Below, one piece after another: positions 8,382-30,866 of a stretch of 32,329 nt of DNA. Made by a program: the position numbers and the translations under genes. The stretch comes from Synergistaceae bacterium (lineage in GTDB: Bacteria; Synergistota; Synergistia; Synergistales; Synergistaceae): contig JAITOL010000165.1 in NCBI GenBank assembly GCA_031289955.1, forward strand, positions 1 to 32,329. The letters are read 5' to 3'. Each line of letters starts with the position of its first letter. Position 1 is the first letter of the stretch. The notes under the pieces are model-generated. The model was not told where the DNA came from. It searched no databases and saw nothing but the letters and a program-made list of their open reading frames with translations.

Positions 8382-8468
8382 CTCGTGGTTGTTTGATTTT
8401 ACAAACATATCATGCCCGTTATATAGATGTTTGTGCGGTTTGTAAAAACTAAAAGGAGGTATGTCATC

Positions 8469-8894
8469 GTGGCAAAAGTTGGAATTATTTACTGGTCCGG
8501 CACCGGCAACACGGAGAACATGGCGTCTTTGATAAAACAGGGAGTCGAGTCCGCCGGGGCGGAAGCCGTGTGCAAACACGTATCCGACGCTTCTTTGGAC
8601 GAGCTCTCCGGTTTCGACACGGTTGCCTTAGGCTCTCCGTCGATGGGATCCGAAGTCGTGGAGGAGGACGAAATGGCCCCGTTCGTCGCGTCCGCAAAAC
8701 CGGGACTCAAGGGGAAAAAAACCGCTCTTTTCGGGTCTTACGGCTGGGGCGACGGAGAGTGGATGCGCAACTGGGCTCTGGAGATGAAAGAAGCCGGCGT
8801 CCTGTTGGTGGACGACGGCCTCATAGTTCACGAAACTCCCGAGGGCGCAAGCGCGGAGCAATGCGTCGCTTTCGGAGTCAAACTGGCTTCATAG
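8469..8894 (+). CDS. short-chain flavodoxin
   Basis: Cytoplasmic FMN-binding electron carrier, 141 residues, of the short-chain type found in anaerobes. The N-terminal phosphate-binding loop is WSGTGNTE after the first beta strand (KVGIIYWSG), followed by the loop ALGSPSMGSEVVEE and the GSYGWGDGEW segment that contacts the flavin ring. I chose the GTG at 8469: AAAGGAGGT is nine bases upstream, whereas the ATG fourteen codons earlier has no ribosome site. It is a single-gene unit transcribed from a strong promoter whose -10 is overlapped by an inverted repeat, suggesting regulated expression (iron or redox control is common for flavodoxins but not shown here). Confidence 0.93.
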   Translation: MAKVGIIYWSGTGNTENMASLIKQGVESAGAEAVCKHVSDASLDELSGFDTVALGSPSMGSEVVEEDEMAPFVASAKPGLKGKKTALFGSYGWGDGEWMRNWALEMKEAGVLLVDDGLIVHETPEGASAEQCVAFGVKLAS

Positions 8895-8901
8895 GAAGAG
8901 G

Positions 8902-9097
8902 CTATCTCAGACGTTTCATGGCTAAAGCGGACGGGCAGAGCGACAATCCGCCGAGCGACGCACAGCGAAGCTCCGGCGGGATCATTCTGCCCGTTTCGTA
9001 CACCGCGTCTATCGTCTCGTCGAGCGGCGGTATGAGAACTCGACGGGCCCCTCATTACCGGCCCCAGCACGCCGTTGAACACGCTCGCGGTCTTCAT
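8902..9097 (-). pseudogene. remnant of an iron-sulfur L-serine dehydratase
   Basis: Immediately after codY (2 bases) an ATG opens a frame with the N-terminal signature of iron-sulfur L-serine ammonia-lyases (VFNGVLGPVMRGPSSSHTAA). The body of the enzyme is then missing. A different frame continues directly with a C-terminal-like segment (PLDETIDAVYETGRMIPPE), and a further one-base shift gives ASLGGLSLCPSALAMKRLR followed by a stop at 8904-8902. So both ends of a roughly 400-500 residue enzyme remain, joined by a large internal deletion plus a frameshift. The four-cysteine cluster region is lost. This is a dead gene once cotranscribed with codY; the family name is my recognition of the termini and needs a search. 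Confidence 0.75.
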
Positions 9098-9099
9098 CC

Positions 9100-9942
9100 C
9101 TAATATCCCTCTCTCGAGTGGATCGGATTGTAATCGTCCCTGTGCGGGGACAACCCCAGTTCCTCCAGAAACAACCTGCTCGTGACCTTTATGTACGTGC
9201 CCTTCATCCCGAGGCTCCGGCTCTCTATTATCCCGGCGCTTCCGAGTTTGCGGAGGGCGTTCACGATCACGCTCCTCGTCACTCCGACTCTGTCGGCGAC
9301 CTTGCTGGCGACGACCACTCCGTCATGTCCGCCCAGATCCTCTATTATGTGCTTTATCGACTCGACCTCCGAGAACGAGAGCGCCCGCATCGCCATCTGG
9401 ACGACGAGCCTCTCCCGGCCGCGATCTTCTATGTTGCGGCTGCGCTCGTTCAGTATCTCGACTCCGACCACTGTCGCCAGATATTCGGCCAGCACGAGAT
9501 CCTTCGTCTCGAACGGTTCGCCGAAACGCGCCAGTATCAGGGTTCCAAGGCGTTCAGCCTTGCCGTTTATCGGAACGAAGAGCACATGTTTGTTCAAATA
9601 TGTGCAAGGCTGATCCGAATAAGCGCAGAAACCGTTGTCGGTGTGGTTCAGAACGGACTCGCGCGCCATGTTGAGTTTGTCGACGTATTTTTCCGGCATA
9701 TAACCGCCGGTGAGAAAACCTTCCATGACGTGGCAGTCATACTCGCTCACCCATGAGTAACCGAGTATCCGCCCCTCCCTGTTTATCAGATAAACGTTGG
9801 CCGTCGACAGATCGGTCAAAAGATGCGCCAATCTCTGATAGTCCGGCGTCCTGGTATCCAGCCTGTTTTGCAGAACCCTGCTGACGTGCCGGGTCTTCTC
9901 GAGCAGATCGAGCATATCGTCATGACTCTCGATATCGGTCAT
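9100..9942 (-). CDS. codY: GTP-sensing global transcriptional regulator CodY
   Basis: Homologue of the CodY regulator, which in Firmicutes senses GTP and branched-chain amino acids through an N-terminal GAF domain and represses nutrient-limitation genes. The C-terminal helix-turn-helix is nearly identical to that of Bacillus (VASKVADRVGVTRSVIVNAL, then SAGIIESRSLGMKGTYIKV). The GAF half contains ERLGTLILARF and DLVLAEYLATVVGVEIL. I chose the second ATG (9942): the upstream ATGGAGGTT supplies GGAGG at correct distance and is better read as its ribosome site than as a start six codons earlier. It is the fourth gene of xerC-hslV-hslU-codY, the Firmicutes cod order. Confidence 0.95.
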   Translation of the reverse strand: MTDIESHDDMLDLLEKTRHVSRVLQNRLDTRTPDYQRLAHLLTDLSTANVYLINREGRILGYSWVSEYDCHVMEGFLTGGYMPEKYVDKLNMARESVLNHTDNGFCAYSDQPCTYLNKHVLFVPINGKAERLGTLILARFGEPFETKDLVLAEYLATVVGVEILNERSRNIEDRGRERLVVQMAMRALSFSEVESIKHIIEDLGGHDGVVVASKVADRVGVTRSVIVNALRKLGSAGIIESRSLGMKGTYIKVTSRLFLEELGLSPHRDDYNPIHSREGY

Positions 9943-9969
9943 ATGATCCGTAACCTCCATTCGCGGCGC

Positions 9970-11409
9970 CTACAGCAGATATTTTCTGGCGTCGTCGTCC
10001 TCGGTCAGCGTCGCGAGCCTGCCCCGGACGAAATCGCCGTCTATTCTCACCTCGAGAGCCGACGACGGCTCGCCAGCCTCGAAACTCACTTCCTCCAGAA
10101 GATGCTCCATCATCGCGTGCAGTCTGCGGGCCCCGATATTCTCCATCTGAGAGTTCATCGCGGCCGCGTAACCCGCTATCGCGGCTATGGCGTCGTCCGT
10201 GAAGACGATCTCGGTTCCCTCGGTCTCCAGCAGCGCCACATACTGCTTTATGAGGCTGTTCTCGGGATCGGTCAGTATGCGGACAAGATCCTCCTCGGAG
10301 AGCGCGTCGAGCTCGACCCTTATTGGAAGACGTCCCTGAAGCTCCGGCGCCAGATCAGACGGCTTGTTGTGATGAAAAGCCCCGGCCGCTATGAACAGTA
10401 TGTGGTCCGTGTCGACCGGGCCGTATTTCGTGTGAACAGCGGTGCCCTCTATTATGGGCAGCAGGTCGCGCTGCACTCCCTCGCGGCTCACGTCCGGGCC
10501 GGATCTTCCGGCGGCGGAACCGGAGGCGATCTTGTCTATCTCGTCGATAAACACGATGCCCTCCTCCTGCGCCCGTTCGAGTGCTTCGGCGCTTATGGCC
10601 TCCATGTCGAGCAGTTTTTCGGCCTCCTCGGCCTGAAATATCCGCTTCGCCTCGTCGACCCTCATTTTTTTGCGCCTCGTCTTCTTGGGCATCATCCCTC
10701 CGATCAGCTCGCCTATGTTGATGCCCATCTCCTCCATGCCTCCGCCGATGAAACCGACGCCCACCCTGGGGCTTTCGGAGACCTCGACCTCTATCTCCCG
10801 CGCGTCGAGCTTTCCGCCCTTCAGCATGTCGCGCATCTTTTCCCTCGTGTGGGCGGAGCGTTCGGTATCCTCCGGCGTTTCGGCCTCTATCGCCTCGGTT
10901 TTTTCAGCTCCGGCGCCCCCCATCCCGAATATCCGCATCAGATCGGAGACCGCCGGCGCGCGGAGCTTTTTTCCGGTCGGCAGCAGCGCGTCCAAAATAC
11001 GCTCCTCCGCGTTCGAGGCGGCGTCGTCCTGCACGCTCTCGATTTTTCTGCGCCGCGCCATCTGAACGGAGACCTCGACGAGATCTCGTATCATCGACTC
11101 CACGTCGCGCCCCACGTAGCCAACCTCGGTGAATTTCGTGGCCTCGACCTTCACAAACGGCGCTTCCACCAGCTTCGCGAGCCGGCGGGCAAGTTCCGTC
11201 TTTCCAACTCCGGTCGGGCCGACCATAAGAATATTTTTCGGCGCGACCTCGGCCCTCATCTCATCCGTCAAGGCCCTTCTGCGGATGCGGTTTCTCAGAG
11301 CTATCGCCACCGAGCGCTTTGCGCTGTCCTGACCTATGACGTAACGGTCGAGATATGTCACCACGGAGCGCGGCGTCATGTTTGCGCCATGTTCAGCCGA
11401 TATTGGCAT
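9970..11409 (-). CDS. hslU: HslU/ClpY ATPase of the HslUV protease
   Basis: AAA+ unfoldase that recognises, unfolds and feeds substrates into the HslV peptidase. The 479-residue protein has the N-terminal segment for client-free hexamer assembly (MTPRSVVTYLDRYVIGQDSAKR), Walker A GPTGVGKT, the central I-domain (roughly 110-250, with a glycine/methionine-rich part), Walker B VFIDEIDKI, the RPD-like arginine finger region (LQGRLPIRVEL) and sensor 2 IGARRLH. The C-terminal hydrophobic tail (KYLL) that docks into HslV is present. The start overlaps the hslV stop as TAATG with GGAGGAAG upstream, so the two subunits are translationally coupled. Confidence 0.97.
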   Translation of the reverse strand: MPISAEHGANMTPRSVVTYLDRYVIGQDSAKRSVAIALRNRIRRRALTDEMRAEVAPKNILMVGPTGVGKTELARRLAKLVEAPFVKVEATKFTEVGYVGRDVESMIRDLVEVSVQMARRRKIESVQDDAASNAEERILDALLPTGKKLRAPAVSDLMRIFGMGGAGAEKTEAIEAETPEDTERSAHTREKMRDMLKGGKLDAREIEVEVSESPRVGVGFIGGGMEEMGINIGELIGGMMPKKTRRKKMRVDEAKRIFQAEEAEKLLDMEAISAEALERAQEEGIVFIDEIDKIASGSAAGRSGPDVSREGVQRDLLPIIEGTAVHTKYGPVDTDHILFIAAGAFHHNKPSDLAPELQGRLPIRVELDALSEEDLVRILTDPENSLIKQYVALLETEGTEIVFTDDAIAAIAGYAAAMNSQMENIGARRLHAMMEHLLEEVSFEAGEPSSALEVRIDGDFVRGRLATLTEDDDARKYLL

Positions 11410-11954
11410 TATTCAACTTCCTCCAGAATTATCGAATCGTTCGTGTAGATACATATGCGGGACGCTATCTCTATGCCGCGCCGCGCTATCTCGCCGGAGG
11501 GCAGGTCGGTCGATTCGAGCATGGCGAACGCGGCCGCCTGCGCGAAACCTCCCCCGGAACCTATCGCCGTAACTCCGTTTTCCGGCTCCAGTATGTCTCC
11601 CGCGCCGGAGAGGAGGAAAATATCGCTCTTGTCGGCCACTATCATCATTGCCTCCAATTTTCTGAGGTATTTGTCGGTGCGCCAGTCCTTCATCAGGGCG
11701 CTCGAAGCCCGAAGCAGGTTTCCGTGGTGCTCGTCGAGCTGTTTTTCGAAGCGTTCGAGCAGCGTCATGGCGTCCGACGTGCTGCCCGCGAAACCGGCAA
11801 TGACGTCGCCCCTGTTCTTTCCAACTATCCGGCGAACCTTGCGGGCCGTCATCTTGACCACCTGGCTGCCCAAAGTCACCTGTCCGTCGCCGGCCATTGC
11901 GGTCCGCCCGTCCCGCTTAACGCAAATTATCGTGGTTCCTTCCATGTTCTGCAT
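11409..11954 (-). CDS. hslV: HslV/ClpQ peptidase of the HslUV protease
   Basis: Proteasome-like threonine peptidase forming a double hexameric chamber with HslU. The 181-residue protein begins MQNMEG before TTI; by family comparison Thr7 becomes the nucleophilic N-terminus after removal of a short propeptide, as in Bacillus ClpQ, whose propeptide also precedes a TTI. The body is canonical: [53 protein letters not shown] and [13 protein letters not shown]. Its ATG directly abuts the xerC stop (TAAATG), consistent with coupling; the ribosome site is weak. Confidence 0.97.
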
Positions 11955-12872
11955 TTATCTCACATTTCCCCCAAGTCCGGAGCGCGGATGCGTCTCCATA
12001 TAACTTCTTTTCATCTGTTCCACCGACACCTTGAGATATCTCTCGGTGGTGGCGAGGCTCTCGTGTCCCATCAACTCCTGTATGACGCGAAGAGGCGCTC
12101 CCCGTTCGAGCATGTGCGTCGCGAAACTGTGCCTCATGGTGTGCGGCGTGACGCCGTACAGCCCAAGAGCCCTCGAAACCGCGACGACCATCCTGTGGAC
12201 GGTGCGCTCCGTCAGACGGGACGCCCCCGTCTTCTCCGGGTAAAAGACCGGAGATTCCCCCTCCGTCGCATGTCCCTTCAAGGAAGCTGCGTCTTTCCAC
12301 GCGACCAGCAGATCGCGCGCCGCGTGCCCGAAATACGCCCTCCGCTCCTTTGAGCCTTTGCCCTTCACCCTCAGCTCCCGCTCCCCTATATCGACGTCGT
12401 CCCAGGCGAGAGACACGAGCTCGTTCACCCTGAGCCCCGCGCCATAGAGCAATTCGAGGATGAGAACGTCGCGCGCGCCACGCCTCTCCGATTTGCCGGC
12501 GGCGTCTATCATCTTCATTACGTCTTCGTACGCTATCGGCTTGGGCACATACGCCTCAGCCCTGGGGCCCCGCAGCCCGACGCCGGGGTCGCCGGATACG
12601 ACGTGACGGGCGGCCAGATACTTCGTAAACCCTCGAAGAGACGACAGCTTGCGCGATATGGAGCTTCTTGAAAAACCGTAGCCGGACAGCTCTCTGAGGA
12701 ATCCCCTGAGACAATCCCTGTTGAGGCCGTCCGGCGTCGTCGTTCCCACAGATTCCAGATAATCGGCAAACTGAGCCAGATCCACCGCGTAGTTTACCAC
12801 GGTGTTTTTCGAACGCCCCTTCGCCGAACCCGTATAAAGGATAAACTCGTCTATATAGCTTGAAATATTCAT
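11955..12872 (-). CDS. xerC: tyrosine recombinase XerC (CodV)
   Basis: Site-specific tyrosine recombinase, probably acting at dif to resolve chromosome dimers (CodV/XerC position in the cod operon). Numbering from the ATG at 12872 (305 residues), the catalytic set is R148 (GAGLRVNEL), K172 (KGKGSKER), H244 and R247 (HTMRHSFATH), H270 (LMGHESL) and nucleophile Y279. The N-terminal SAM-like core-binding domain covers about residues 1-95. A longer frame begins with GTG at 12893, but that codon overlaps the -10 of the promoter, so the inner ATG is preferred. It heads the xerC-hslV-hslU-codY operon. Confidence 0.94.
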   Translation of the reverse strand: MNISSYIDEFILYTGSAKGRSKNTVVNYAVDLAQFADYLESVGTTTPDGLNRDCLRGFLRELSGYGFSRSSISRKLSSLRGFTKYLAARHVVSGDPGVGLRGPRAEAYVPKPIAYEDVMKMIDAAGKSERRGARDVLILELLYGAGLRVNELVSLAWDDVDIGERELRVKGKGSKERRAYFGHAARDLLVAWKDAASLKGHATEGESPVFYPEKTGASRLTERTVHRMVVAVSRALGLYGVTPHTMRHSFATHMLERGAPLRVIQELMGHESLATTERYLKVSVEQMKRSYMETHPRSGLGGNVR

Positions 12873-12883
12873 AATATTGGGAA

Positions 12884-12912
12884 ATTGTATCACTTATTGC
12901 GACTATTGACAA
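12884..12912 (-). promoter_or_regulatory. promoter of the xerC-hslVU-codY operon
   Basis: On the minus strand TTGTCA (12912-12907) and TACAAT (12889-12884) are separated by 17 bases. The expected transcription start lies only about 5 bases ahead of the xerC ATG at 12872, implying an almost leaderless mRNA. Confidence 0.6.
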
Positions 12913-25994: not shown

Positions 25995-26001
25995 AGGCCG
26001 C

Positions 26002-26098
26002 TGTCAGAATCCACAACATAAGAAAACAAAATAAATCTCTTTACTTAGGGATGCTTTTGGAGTCTGTTAAGTAAACTGCGTGATGTAATATTCTGACA
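26002..26098. repeat. nested inverted repeats, possible miniature element or structured RNA
   Basis: An outer perfect 9-bp inverted repeat (TGTCAGAAT 26002-26010, ATTCTGACA 26090-26098) encloses an inner perfect 8-bp hairpin (TTTACTTA 26040-26047, TAAGTAAA 26068-26075, 20-base loop). It begins 7 bases after the DtxR-type gene stop. No target-site duplication is evident. Confidence 0.45.
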
Positions 26099-26117
26099 AT
26101 TAGGCGTCCCACCAGAT

Positions 26118-26214
26118 AGCGACTTGGTCGCTTCCGAAATGTCACCGGGAATCCTATTCAGGATAGCAGTGCGACTCTTGTCTGTTAGTTGTGAATTCAC
26201 TGAGATATACTCAG
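26118..26214. other. chain of short hairpins between the regulator and the HNH gene
   Basis: Three further stem-loops follow: AGCGAC/GTCGCT (26118-26132, 3-base loop), ATCCT/AGGAT (26151-26164) and CTGAG/CTCAG (26200-26214). On the minus strand an uninterrupted frame of about 66 codons without a good start ends at 26045. I recognise no protein or RNA family; it may be the 3' remnant of an element tied to the restriction cassette. Confidence 0.3.
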
Positions 26215-26237
26215 CGTTTATTGTATAATGCTCATCT

Positions 26238-26948
26238 TCATTCTAAATATTCGCGTACCAGTTTCTTGATAGTTTTCTTTGCCTCTTCCATACCTGAAAG
26301 TCCTATCAGCCTTTTGTAATCCTCTATTTCATCGCCTGTGAATACTATGGAAATAATTCTCTGGTTATTACCGGCTATATGCCCATAATTTTCAGGATAT
26401 GCCCAGAAACATTTTGCGCAAAATGAAACATCCTTGATTTTCCAATTCTCACAATGTTCACATGTCCATGATTTAGCTCTATTTGCGGAGGGACACAATA
26501 ACATATACGCCTCGACATTGTCCTCATCCTGCTCTCCGCCAATTTCATATGGGATTCTATGATCGACCTGCAATAAATTTTCATCAACTGGTTCGTAATA
26601 AATAAAGCATTTTGCCCCATGCTTATCAATCAACGCCTGTTTCAATATTTTTGAAAGAGCAGTCCGACCAGCTACCTTTGATAACATATGTTTGACATCA
26701 CTTGGATCGCCAAGCTTATATGCTGCAATTTTTCTGCCATCACTACCTTCAATGCGATAAGTAATCAAAGGGATTCCGTACTCTCTAACATCGCGTACTG
26801 CCCTTGGAGGATGGTTATAGCCGTATAAATCCTTCAACTCTTGTGACGATATATAGCCATGTTTCAAAATATGCTGTATTACAGTTCGGGGGCGTTTTGC
26901 TTCTATAGAGTTCAATAAATCTAAAAACTCTTTGGGGTACTCGTTCAT
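26238..26948 (-). CDS. HNH-type restriction endonuclease
   Basis: Probable type II restriction enzyme, 236 residues. The beta-beta-alpha-metal (HNH) site is at about 120-165: LLQVDHRIPYEIGG with the catalytic His after Asp, then EDNVEAYMLLCPSANRAKSW. It is followed by a two-CxxC zinc ribbon (CEHC and CAKC). The N-terminal ~60 residues are wHTH-like (GYISSQELKDLYGYNHPPRAVRDVREYG). Its ATG overlaps the methylase stop by 4 bases, the tight coupling typical of a restriction-modification pair. Base composition is much more AT-rich than the flanks, indicating transfer. A standalone HNH nuclease is the alternative, but the methylase partner argues against it. Recognition sequence unknown. Confidence 0.85.
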   Translation of the reverse strand: MNEYPKEFLDLLNSIEAKRPRTVIQHILKHGYISSQELKDLYGYNHPPRAVRDVREYGIPLITYRIEGSDGRKIAAYKLGDPSDVKHMLSKVAGRTALSKILKQALIDKHGAKCFIYYEPVDENLLQVDHRIPYEIGGEQDEDNVEAYMLLCPSANRAKSWTCEHCENWKIKDVSFCAKCFWAYPENYGHIAGNNQRIISIVFTGDEIEDYKRLIGLSGMEEAKKTIKKLVREYLE

Positions 26949-27853
26949 ACAACACTCTCCAACAAAGTCAATTGTCTTTGTGTTATATCAATCGGCAATG
27001 ATAGATTTTGACTGATATATAATGCTTCATATGTTGTATGCCTTTTTCCCAACAACGTTGCTTGTGTTGATAAACCTGCGTCAAGAAGGATTTTTGTACA
27101 ATTCAGTTCTTGGGGCAACTCGGAACCATATTCTTTTTCACCACAAATTCCATCGTAGCTAATTATATAATCAACCTGATTGCGGTTGAGAACCGCAACT
27201 GCCGAGACAAATTCATCAAAGTTCACACCAGAAAAATAACGATTATCCCTCGTATTTGTAACTCCCTGATATGGGGGATCCATATAGACTAAATCGCCCG
27301 GCTTCGCAATTTCAAGAACCCTCCGATAGTCAAGAGCAGAAAATAAAACACGTCCCTTTAAAATATGGGAAATAGCATGGACATTAGTTGCTATAGTAGT
27401 GGGCTTTGTGCCATTTCGACGTTTATCAGGAGACTGATTAAAATTTCTGTTTTTTCCATATCTTACCGCTCCCTTTACGCATCGCGCCAGTAAATATAGC
27501 ATATTCTCAGCACTTTTGTCCCCCGCATTGAATAACTCTCTTATGTAATTAAAATGCTCTATGTGTCCATCAGGGAAATTGAATTGCTCCTCCCAAATTC
27601 TTTTATATTTATCAACGATTTCCGCGGGATTTTCTATCACAGTCTGTAATAGGCATACGATTGGCTCGTTCAAATCGTTTATGTGATATTCATTGGCACG
27701 TTTCTGGAAAGCAACCGCTATTGATATCGCCGCCATCCCCGAAAAAGGCTCAATCAGTCGATTGAACTTTTTAGGCATGTACCTAAGAATTTCAGAAGCA
27801 AGCATTCTTTTTGAGCCTTGATATTGTACAATATGCGGTATTCTCCCATTCAT
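26945..27853 (-). CDS. DNA adenine methylase (D12/Dam class)
   Basis: N6-adenine DNA methyltransferase of the D12 class, 302 residues, protecting host DNA from the neighbouring HNH nuclease. The AdoMet motif (I) is IEPFSGMAAISIA, preceded by the QYQGSKRMLA segment that replaces motif X in this class, and the catalytic motif IV is DPPYQG. A target-recognition region lies between them (about 70-190). I chose ATG 27853 with GAGGTGG just upstream rather than the overlapping GTG three codons earlier. It is the first gene of the cassette, AT-rich like its partner, and is preceded by a small palindrome in the promoter region. Confidence 0.92.
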   Translation of the reverse strand: MNGRIPHIVQYQGSKRMLASEILRYMPKKFNRLIEPFSGMAAISIAVAFQKRANEYHINDLNEPIVCLLQTVIENPAEIVDKYKRIWEEQFNFPDGHIEHFNYIRELFNAGDKSAENMLYLLARCVKGAVRYGKNRNFNQSPDKRRNGTKPTTIATNVHAISHILKGRVLFSALDYRRVLEIAKPGDLVYMDPPYQGVTNTRDNRYFSGVNFDEFVSAVAVLNRNQVDYIISYDGICGEKEYGSELPQELNCTKILLDAGLSTQATLLGKRHTTYEALYISQNLSLPIDITQRQLTLLESVV

Positions 27854-27904
27854 CTTATCCACCTCGTATCATCACAGAGACAACTAAAATTACCACTATA
27901 CGCA

Positions 27905-27921
27905 ATAGAAATACCTTCTAT
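27905..27921. promoter_or_regulatory. palindrome upstream of the restriction-modification operon
   Basis: ATAGAA (27905-27910) and TTCTAT (27916-27921) form a 17-base inverted repeat about 50 bases ahead of the methylase start in AT-rich DNA, flanked by CTATAC repeats. It could be an operator; no controller gene is seen in the cassette. Confidence 0.3.
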
Positions 27922-27976
27922 ACTAAGTAAAAGGCCTAAAAATTTCAAGTCATGACTCGCATTGGCGGAGCTGATG

Positions 27977-27997
27977 CGCCGCCCGATTCAGGCGGCG
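27977..27997 (-). terminator. GC hairpin at the plsC stop codon
   Basis: CGCCGCC (27977-27983) and GGCGGCG (27991-27997) form a perfect 7-bp stem with a 7-base loop that contains the plsC stop codon. No uridine tract follows on the minus strand, so it may slow or end transcription only weakly. Confidence 0.4.
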
Positions 27998-28626
27998 TCC
28001 CTCATCTTTAACATCGCGCCCAGTATGGAATCCAGCATGGCCTGACGGCGTTCCTTCTCGGGCATTTCGTCCGGGAAATCTTCGCGCGTTATCGGCGGCC
28101 CGAACGTCACGGAGATCCGATATGGCCGCGGGAAACGATGAAACAGCGGATACGCCTCGAACGAGCCCTCTATCCAGATCGGCACTATGGGCGCTCCGGT
28201 CTTCGACGCGATCAGGGAGACGCCTCCCTCAAAAGGAAGCAGGCTGCCGTCGGGCGTCCTCTCCCCCTCCGGAAAAATCAACACGCTGTACCCTTCCTTT
28301 ATAAAATTCATAACATCGCGCAGCAGGCTCGCGCCGCTGTTTTTGTTCTGCTGATTGACGGGAACCGCGCCGAGCGCGCCGAGCAGCGCGGCGAACGGAC
28401 GAAATTTAAAAAGACCGTCCCACGCGATAAACCGCAGAGGATTTGGAAACACCATGCCGATCGCCGGGGGGTCGAGATAACTTTCGTGGTTCGCCACGAG
28501 TATCACGGGAGAGTTTCCCCTGGAGACGAGAAACTCGCGAAGCTCTTTCATCCCCCTGATGGAAATGCGGTGATATATGAGGAAATATATCCGGAATAAA
28601 ATCTGAGCGATCCAGTAGACCATCAT
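27988..28626 (-). CDS. plsC: 1-acyl-sn-glycerol-3-phosphate acyltransferase
   Basis: Lysophospholipid acyltransferase of the PlsC family at the inner membrane, adding the second acyl chain to make phosphatidic acid. The 212-residue protein has one N-terminal hydrophobic helix (about 3-18), the catalytic NHESYLDP (HxxxxD), the glycerophosphate-binding FPEGERT, and VPIWIEGS. Length is typical for the short bacterial form. Two adjacent ATGs are possible; the second (28623) sits better relative to GGGGGG. It is divergent from ptb and separated from the restriction cassette by a hairpin. Confidence 0.92.
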   Translation of the reverse strand: MMVYWIAQILFRIYFLIYHRISIRGMKELREFLVSRGNSPVILVANHESYLDPPAIGMVFPNPLRFIAWDGLFKFRPFAALLGALGAVPVNQQNKNSGASLLRDVMNFIKEGYSVLIFPEGERTPDGSLLPFEGGVSLIASKTGAPIVPIWIEGSFEAYPLFHRFPRPYRISVTFGPPITREDFPDEMPEKERRQAMLDSILGAMLKMRDAA

Positions 28627-28714: not shown

Positions 28715-28799
28715 CTGTTTCTGAAAACGCGCTCATTATGGTACTATTTTGACAGTCTGAAATTCCAAACCATCGATAATTCAGGGAGGTATGAATGTA

Positions 28800-29723
28800 A
28801 TGAAGCAACTGCGCACTCTCACCGACATGCTCCAACACGCGCGCACCGTAGGGCCGATGACGATCAGCGTGGCCTGCGCGGCCGACGCGGACGTTCTGCA
28901 GGCCGTCGACGCCGCCAGAAAAGAAGGGGTCGCCAACGCGATATTGGTCGGCAACGCGGACAAGATAGCGGAAGCGGCCCGCCTCAATTCGATCGATCCG
29001 GGAAACTTCGAGATACTGGACGAAAAGGGCGGCGAGGCGGACGCGGCGCTAAAGGCGGTGGAACTCGTGTCGTCCGGCAAGGCTCAGATATTGATGAAGG
29101 GAATGCTTCATACCGACAACTTCCTTCGCGGCGTCCTGAACAAGGAAAAGGGGCTCCGCTCGGGGAGCGTCATCTCTCACGTCTATTTACACCAGGTTGA
29201 GGGCTACGACAGGATCATCTTCATCACGGACGGGGCGTTCATCCCCTCCCCAGACCTTCCCACGAAAGCCAAGATCATCGACAACGTGGCGAGGTTCGCC
29301 CACTCGTTCGGCATAGAGACGCCGAAGGTCGCGGTGTTGGCGGCCGTCGAGGTCGTAAACGCCGACATGCCGGCAACGCTCGACGCGGCCGCTCTGACCC
29401 AGATGAACCGCCGCGGCCAGATAAAGGGCTGTGTTGTGGACGGCCCGCTGGCGCTCGACAACGCGGTTTCGGAGCTGTCGGCGAAGCACAAGGGCATAGT
29501 GTCCGACGTGGCGGGAAAGGCCGACATACTGCTCGTGCCCAACATCGAAAGCGGCAATATCCTGGCGAAGTCCATCGTCTACTTCGCGCCGAACAAGACG
29601 GCCGGAATAGTGCTCGGCGCAAAAGCGCCGATAGTCCTCACCAGCAGGGCCGACTCGGCGGAGGCCAAGACGTTCTCCATAGCGGCCGCCGTGGTCTGGG
29701 CCGCATACCAGAAAAACAAGTAA
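28800..29723 (+). CDS. ptb: phosphate butyryltransferase
   Basis: Cytoplasmic acyltransferase of the Ptb/Pta family, exchanging CoA for phosphate on butyryl-CoA (or branched acyl-CoA) so that a kinase can make ATP. The 307-residue protein matches Ptb length and shows ILVGNADKI, QILMKGMLHTDNFLRGVLN, the HVYLHQVEGYDRIIFITDGAF segment, and ILLVPNIESGNILAKSIVYF near the end. I chose the second ATG (28800), nine bases after AGGGAGGT; the ATG at 28791 directly abuts that site. The following gene is a butyrate-kinase homologue, the usual partner, but its active site looks degenerate. Pta activity on acetyl-CoA is a possible alternative. Confidence 0.9.
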   Translation: MKQLRTLTDMLQHARTVGPMTISVACAADADVLQAVDAARKEGVANAILVGNADKIAEAARLNSIDPGNFEILDEKGGEADAALKAVELVSSGKAQILMKGMLHTDNFLRGVLNKEKGLRSGSVISHVYLHQVEGYDRIIFITDGAFIPSPDLPTKAKIIDNVARFAHSFGIETPKVAVLAAVEVVNADMPATLDAAALTQMNRRGQIKGCVVDGPLALDNAVSELSAKHKGIVSDVAGKADILLVPNIESGNILAKSIVYFAPNKTAGIVLGAKAPIVLTSRADSAEAKTFSIAAAVVWAAYQKNK

Positions 29724-29733
29724 AACAGCTCGG

Positions 29734-29761
29734 GGGGAGGTCGCGCGACGCCGGCCTCCCC
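29734..29761 (+). promoter_or_regulatory. strong hairpin holding the only SD-like sequence before the kinase homologue
   Basis: GGGGAGGTCG (29734-29743) pairs with CGGCCTCCCC (29752-29761) over ten positions including one G-T wobble, with an 8-base loop. The left arm contains the only GGAGG near the next gene. It may sequester ribosome binding or protect the upstream mRNA; no uridine run follows, so a terminator is less likely. Confidence 0.5.
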
Positions 29762-29774
29762 TATATATACGACT

Positions 29775-30866
29775 GTGAAGATATTCACTCTCATTCCAAA
29801 GGCATCCGCCACAGAAATAGCGGTTTTCGAAAACGACGAGGCGATATTCAGCAAAACGATAGCCCACGTCCCGTCGGAATTCGCCGCGCTCCGGACCCCT
29901 CCGGAGCAGGGACAATACCGCTTCAACGCCATAATCGAGGCCGTAACGGCGTCTGATTTCGACATGAAGGACGTCGGAGTCGTCATCACAGAGATCGCCT
30001 CCCGCAGACTGCCGGCCGGAATATATATGATAGACGACTCCATCACCGCCATTCTGGCGGAAAACATGATAGATGAAAACCAGCACAGATCCGGCGTGTT
30101 TGCGGCGCTCCTCGTGAGCCGGCACATAGGCGGCAATCACGACGTGGAGTGTATGCCGCTCGTCGTGGAGCCCATAATCATAAGCGAAATAATGCCGGAA
30201 GCCGCCATCAGCGGTCTGAAGGGAATAACGCGCGAACCCGTGTGCAACACTTTATCGCACAGGACGGCCGCGTCCCACTACTCTCACTACGAGAAGGGCA
30301 GCGGCCTGAACGACGCGCGCGTGGTGGCCGTCCATCTGGGCAACGAGATTAGCGTCGGAGCGTACGACATGGGCAGGCTGCTCGACAGCAACAGCCCCCA
30401 GGATGGAGAGGGGCCGTTTTCCCCGTTCACGAGCGGAACCTTGCCTGCTAACTCGCTCATAGACCTCTGCTACTCCGGAAGATACGATATGGACGAGACC
30501 CTCAGGATAATATCGTCCGAAAGCGGGCTTTCCGCCTATCTGGACGACGCGTCGCTGCCGGCCGTAATGAAGGCATACAGGGCAGGGCACAGGAAAACGA
30601 TTTTCATGGTGAAAGCGATGGCATACAAGACCGCGCGGGAGATAGGCGCGAAAGCCGCCGCGCTCTCCGGCAGCGTGGAGGCCATACTGCTCACCGGCCC
30701 ATGGGCGGTTTTTGAAGAATTCACGCGCGAAATATCGTCCCGCGTCGAGTGGATAGCGCCGGTGCGCAACTACGCGCTGGAAGGCGAAATGAAACAGCTC
30801 GCCCGGGCGGCGGCGGAAGTTTATAAAGGCAACGTCAAAATAAAACTGTACGGCCTGGATTGCTGA
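29775..30866 (+). CDS. butyrate kinase homologue with degenerate active site
   Basis: ASKHA-fold acyl kinase relative, 363 residues, full length for butyrate kinase. Clearly conserved: HLG (187-189), ISVGA, DGEGPFSP (210-217), SG.LP (220-224) and the C-terminal IAPV pattern. Yet the N-terminal phosphate motif NPGSTSTK is replaced by IPKASATE, GRGG is replaced around 70-78 (ITEIASRR), the HLGGG glycines become HLGNE, the catalytic DP aspartate region reads VVEPI (E132), and LTGGIA becomes LTGPWA. These changes suggest lost or altered kinase activity. The GTG start has no nearby ribosome site, only a hairpin upstream. It follows ptb by 51 bases on the same strand. It may be a regulatory subunit, a pseudo-enzyme, or have another substrate. 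Confidence 0.85.
   Translation: MKIFTLIPKASATEIAVFENDEAIFSKTIAHVPSEFAALRTPPEQGQYRFNAIIEAVTASDFDMKDVGVVITEIASRRLPAGIYMIDDSITAILAENMIDENQHRSGVFAALLVSRHIGGNHDVECMPLVVEPIIISEIMPEAAISGLKGITREPVCNTLSHRTAASHYSHYEKGSGLNDARVVAVHLGNEISVGAYDMGRLLDSNSPQDGEGPFSPFTSGTLPANSLIDLCYSGRYDMDETLRIISSESGLSAYLDDASLPAVMKAYRAGHRKTIFMVKAMAYKTAREIGAKAAALSGSVEAILLTGPWAVFEEFTREISSRVEWIAPVRNYALEGEMKQLARAAAEVYKGNVKIKLYGLDC

Follow-up and report, generated by a model that had tools for sequence, protein, structure and literature searches.

A remnant of an iron-sulfur serine-dehydratase-type gene directly behind codY in a Synergistaceae bacterium, very likely a deletion pseudogene

Results

Gene content around codY. We analyzed a 32,329-nucleotide stretch of DNA from a Synergistaceae bacterium (the window), which is contig C117 of a metagenome-type assembly of 2.65 Mb in 219 contigs, 95.6% complete and with 2.88% contamination. 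This genome (G000) was compared with a sample of its genus that comprised 11 genomes, itself included, with one genome per species. The window carries an intact codY gene on the minus strand, with a stop codon at positions 9102-9100 and with its best named matches in Synergistaceae assemblies, and upstream of it hslU, hslV, and the gene for a XerC/CodV-type tyrosine recombinase, which we take to be CodV (Table 1). Another 7 genomes of the genus have a copy of hslU, 75 to 82% identical to this one, upstream of codY or of a piece of codY. Behind codY, at positions 9097 to 8902 of the minus strand, we found the remnant of a serine-dehydratase-type gene, 7 bases away from the end of a convergent flavodoxin gene. 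In a scan for promoters and terminators, terminator-like sites occurred at chance level, with none between codY and the flavodoxin gene.

Two further regions of the window drew attention. The stretch from 26000 to 28000 has a GC content of 39 to 40%, compared to about 57%, and encodes an adenine methyltransferase of the D12 class (PF02086) along with a protein that matches HNH and HTH_39; this AT-rich stretch looks like an acquired restriction-modification pair. At 28791-30866, a phosphate acetyl/butyryl transferase gene (PF01515) is followed by one for an acetate-kinase-family protein (PF00871, barely above the cut-off), two genes that we assume are possibly a ptb-buk pair.

Table 1. Features of the window at and around codY
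Feature	Positions	Strand	Evidence
Flavodoxin gene, convergent	8427..8894	+	PF00258 E 4.7e-15; TIGR01753 136.1 bits vs cut-off 123
89-aa chance ORF opened by frame a, antisense into flavodoxin 3' end	8828..9097	-	No Pfam match
Remnant, 3' piece, 41 codons plus stop, other frame	8902..9027	-	90% identity over residues 469-509, E 2.1e-17; codon comparison
Remnant, 5' piece, 24 codons, GPSSSHT motif	9026..9097	-	92% identity over residues 1-25, E 2.3e-7; codon comparison
codY, 286 aa, intact	9100..9960	-	PF06018 E 2.2e-44; PF08222 E 3.7e-27; NF003170 324.5 bits vs cut-off 255
hslU, upstream of codY	9970..11409	-	AAA_2 E 4.5e-34
hslV, proteasome-type peptidase	11409..11954	-	PF00227 E 1.2e-19
XerC/CodV-type tyrosine recombinase	11955..12893	-	PF00589 E 2.7e-37; PF02899

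Two ends of one gene persist in different frames. The remnant opens with an ATG at position 9097, 2 bases past the codY stop codon, a spacing that had already been read correctly in the original prediction. Its first frame (frame a, 9097-9023) translates as MKTASVFNGVLGPVMRGPSSSHTAA, and its second (frame b), which runs up to 8905 and is closed by a stop codon ending at 8902, as PLDETIDAVYETGRMIPPELRCASLGGLSLCPSALAMKRLR. Both pieces match a 509-amino-acid protein of a same-genus genome, G005, with the identities and E values given in Table 1. They represent the homologous start and end of one gene and are collinear, covering residues 1-25 and 469-509 of 509 on the same strand of the same contig. 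The claim that both ends of a serine dehydratase gene are preserved behind codY with the middle gone was thus confirmed, and we can add that they lie on the minus strand. There are no internal stops in either surviving piece. When the G005 protein was searched against the whole 2.65-Mb assembly, it matched only the two window pieces and, at 30%, a sequence on contig C32, and the missing middle of the gene was not found elsewhere. We rejected the 89-amino-acid ORF opened by frame a as a gene, as it had no Pfam match at E values up to 1.

A single deletion would account for both frames. The remnant measures 196 nucleotides compared to 1,530 for the gene in G005, so that about 1,334 nucleotides are missing. 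Because a deletion of this size (3n+2) is not a multiple of three, the two ends stand in different frames and the reading frame is broken. An additional one-base frameshift had been proposed; we rejected it, finding no second lesion, since the loss of about 1,334 nucleotides in one out-of-phase step suffices. The deletion junction is placed as a range rather than at an exact base, at about 9029-9021. In the intact copies of the gene, the longest exact word common to both breakpoint neighborhoods is 6 nucleotides in G005 and 5 nucleotides in G003, another genome of the genus, which fits a short-homology deletion and disagrees with a collapse by the assembler. The word length used by assemblers is far above 5 to 6 nucleotides.

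We also compared the 66 surviving codons (24 plus 42, including the stop) among the three copies. There are 30 silent and 5 amino-acid-changing differences between the window and G005, again 30 and 5 between the window and the G003 copy, and 29 and 4 between the intact genes of G005 and G003. Because the remnant shows hardly any surplus of amino acid changes over the intact copies, the deletion seems recent; these are small counts and a comparison rather than a test, and they suggest a fairly recent event.

The lost gene type and a second serine dehydratase. In G005, an open 509-codon gene begins 4 bases past the codY stop codon (L015:3108-4634), so that an intact gene after codY is present in a relative. 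Compared to this protein, with which the window pieces share 90 to 92% identity at both ends and the same place behind codY, the window copy has lost 444 residues (25-468). The G005 protein matches SDH_alpha (PF03313) at 183.9 bits, above the cut-off of 26.4, and SDH_beta (PF03315) at 21.1 bits, under the cut-off of 26; the G003 copy, 67% identical to that of G005, has no SDH_beta match at 0.001. The G005 protein also falls under the equivalog cut-offs of TIGR00718 (185.6 against 243.2 bits), TIGR00719 (106.9 against 161.2), and TIGR00720 (141.8 against 345.1). It can safely be called a serine-dehydratase type; because it is under every curated equivalog cut-off, its substrate is not assured, and L-serine is putative. 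Three cysteine motifs (GCQ at 388, CDP at 431, and PC at 441), presumably those of the [4Fe-4S] center, all lie in the part deleted from the window copy. One distinct solved-structure sequence matches the G005 protein: PDB 4rqo, an L-serine dehydratase that we take to be from Legionella pneumophila and of the single-chain, SdaA-like type. It aligns with the alpha domain of the G005 protein over residues 317-498 (E 1.1e-28) and has the GCQ, CDP, and PC motifs in common with it, while the beta-type N terminus aligns weakly.

The match on contig C32 of the window's own genome is an intact 468-amino-acid single-chain serine dehydratase (TIGR00720, 650.4 bits against a cut-off of 345.1). Like 4rqo, it is of the single-chain, SdaA-like type and differs from the lost 509-amino-acid type. 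Across the genus, an SDH_alpha gene above the cut-off is present in 6 of the 11 genomes (G000 included), and the 509-amino-acid type is intact in two (G003 and G005) and detectable by protein search as a remnant in one (G000). The idea that this locus records the loss of one serine degradation route is weakened both by the intact enzyme on C32, the other copy whose existence had been raised as a check, and by the substrate of the lost type not being assured.

The place behind codY differs among relatives. The wider gene order is hslU-codY-flgB-flgC. In a comparison of 36 codY loci, 32 of them with at least 500 nucleotides downstream, flgB lies within 210 nucleotides after codY in 13, including G003, G007, and several surrounding genera; some of the named loci may duplicate genomes of our own series, and L029-L031, which duplicate three of those genomes, are omitted. 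No serine dehydratase match (509- or 468-amino-acid query) was found near codY in any of 80 named codY loci with flanks of up to 6 kb. Within the genus, a gene of this kind immediately follows codY in the same orientation as an intact copy in G005 and as a remnant in G000 and G002, and is absent from that place in G003, G004, G007, and G008. A tree built from HslU plus CodY split G000, G001, G002, G004, G005, and G008 from G003, G007, and the outgroups with a support of 94. Inside this sub-clade, support is weak (55 to 62), except for G002 with G005 and G001 (100) and G005 with G001 (99).

The remnant in G002 (L014, 3384-2356, minus strand; contig C241) was missed by the protein search and found by reading the sequence. 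There, codY is followed by an 18-codon frame and then by a glycosyltransferase family 2 gene (PF00535, E 1.8e-32), and the first 13 codons of the frame match the start of the serine-dehydratase gene at 9 of 13. As a control, we scored 34,945 distinct start-codon words from Synergistota loci; all those scoring at least 8 belong to 509-type genes, the window remnant, or the G002 stub, and the best other word scores 7. Behind codY, G008 has a spacer in which a GC-rich stretch resembling a stem and a run of T were seen by eye, followed by a flavodoxin gene, and G004 has a tautomerase gene and a prepilin-peptidase-type gene. The flgBC genes are absent behind codY in all five of the six sub-clade genomes in which the downstream end of codY is visible. 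Rod-protein genes are present elsewhere in G000, G001, G002, G005, and G008, and the rod-protein family has no match in G004. In the window's own genome, flgB and flgC lie at about 3046-3885 of contig C148 (L190), apart from codY, an arrangement that differs from those of G003, G007, and most of the neighboring genera examined.

The codY gene itself is incomplete in G001, the sister of G005 (L018, 3076-3413; contig C44). After an intact hslU we found only a 114-nucleotide piece of codY, 91% identical to that of G005. This piece lacks about 117 nucleotides on its upstream side, the start among them, and is followed by unrelated AT-rich sequence. Because the contig stops 135 nucleotides past the matched piece, a contig-end artifact is possible. 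We did not find codY in G006, G009, and G010, a result that is uninformative on codY loss given their poor hslU matches (residues 1-128 of 479 in G006, residues 9-321 of 479 in G010, and a weak, distant match in G009).

Discussion

We conclude with high confidence that an iron-sulfur serine-dehydratase-type gene directly behind codY has become a pseudogene by deletion. A two-domain gene of this type, with fused beta and alpha domains, would have come to sit directly behind codY in one sub-clade, and in the lineage of the window one short-homology, out-of-phase deletion, probably a single event, would have taken residues 25-468 and joined the ends in different frames. The remaining product, having lost the entire iron-sulfur center with its three cysteine motifs, cannot act as an enzyme. 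The loss was probably tolerated because another iron-sulfur serine dehydratase persists in the genome.

The deletion was seen in one metagenome-type assembly and one genome of the species, and the fragmentation of that assembly (219 contigs) and its 2.88% contamination leave a small chance that the organism has an intact gene whose ends were joined by the assembler or come from a minority strain. We consider this improbable, as the intact relatives have no repeat above 5 to 6 nucleotides at the breakpoints, the middle of the gene is missing from the entire assembly, the junction lies mid-contig, and G002 bears a distinct stub of its own in that position; we infer that the junction reflects the true state of the genome. 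We judge it very improbable that the remnant has been retained for use, for example to encode a short leader or coupling peptide downstream of codY. The start codon and tight codY spacing, which the window shares with G005 and G002, would agree with such a role, as would the few amino acid changes among the surviving codons and the similar start of the G002 stub, which directly precedes the glycosyltransferase gene. However, no same-strand gene follows in the window, where the frame runs antisense into the convergent flavodoxin gene; the ends are equally conserved between the intact copies, and nothing recognizable stands at that place in G008 or G004. A chance resemblance, with no serine-dehydratase remnant at all, is refuted by the E values of the whole-genome search (2.1e-17 and 2.3e-7) and by order, strand, and place all being right.

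The original prediction had called the locus a fossil of a codY-sda operon and had placed the lost route under the nutrient regulator; control of the gene by CodY, like a shared transcript, is putative. As for the pairing, it is real, being intact in G005, but it is young and local, seen only in one sub-clade; we rejected an ancient operon, given the wider hslU-codY-flgBC order and the 0 of 80 named loci with a serine dehydratase match nearby. In the simplest reading, the gene reached codY before the sub-clade diversified, and repeated losses followed; alternatively, serine-dehydratase genes may have arrived behind codY separately. The intact 509-type copy of G003 lies on a different contig from its codY, which counts against a long history of the gene behind codY. 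The branching order within the sub-clade has a support of 55 to 62, too low to settle how many times the gene was lost independently.

Bacterial deletion pseudogenes that arise by short-homology deletion are a known kind, and they likewise show one out-of-phase internal deletion, ends that are otherwise undamaged, and intact relatives. The present case does not differ from them in kind and, taken as one pseudogene, is ordinary; its sole unusual aspect is that several relatives have other states at the same place. A search of the literature found no account of this locus among the titles and openings of abstracts listed.

The locus is thus a case of ordinary gene decay that is informative as a series of losses among relatives: a clean gene loss, seemingly observed not long after it happened, with an intact copy in a neighbor and further outcomes at the same spot in other genomes. 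We offer a broader reading only tentatively, and consider it rather unlikely, namely that the codY locus of the sub-clade as a whole is coming apart, with flgBC gone, the sda-type gene settled and then lost in various ways, and codY fragmentary in G001, so that some lineages would be in the course of abandoning nutrient sensing by CodY. Should the entire codY locus turn out to be eroding, it would offer a tractable example of how related bacteria dismantle a global nutrient regulator.
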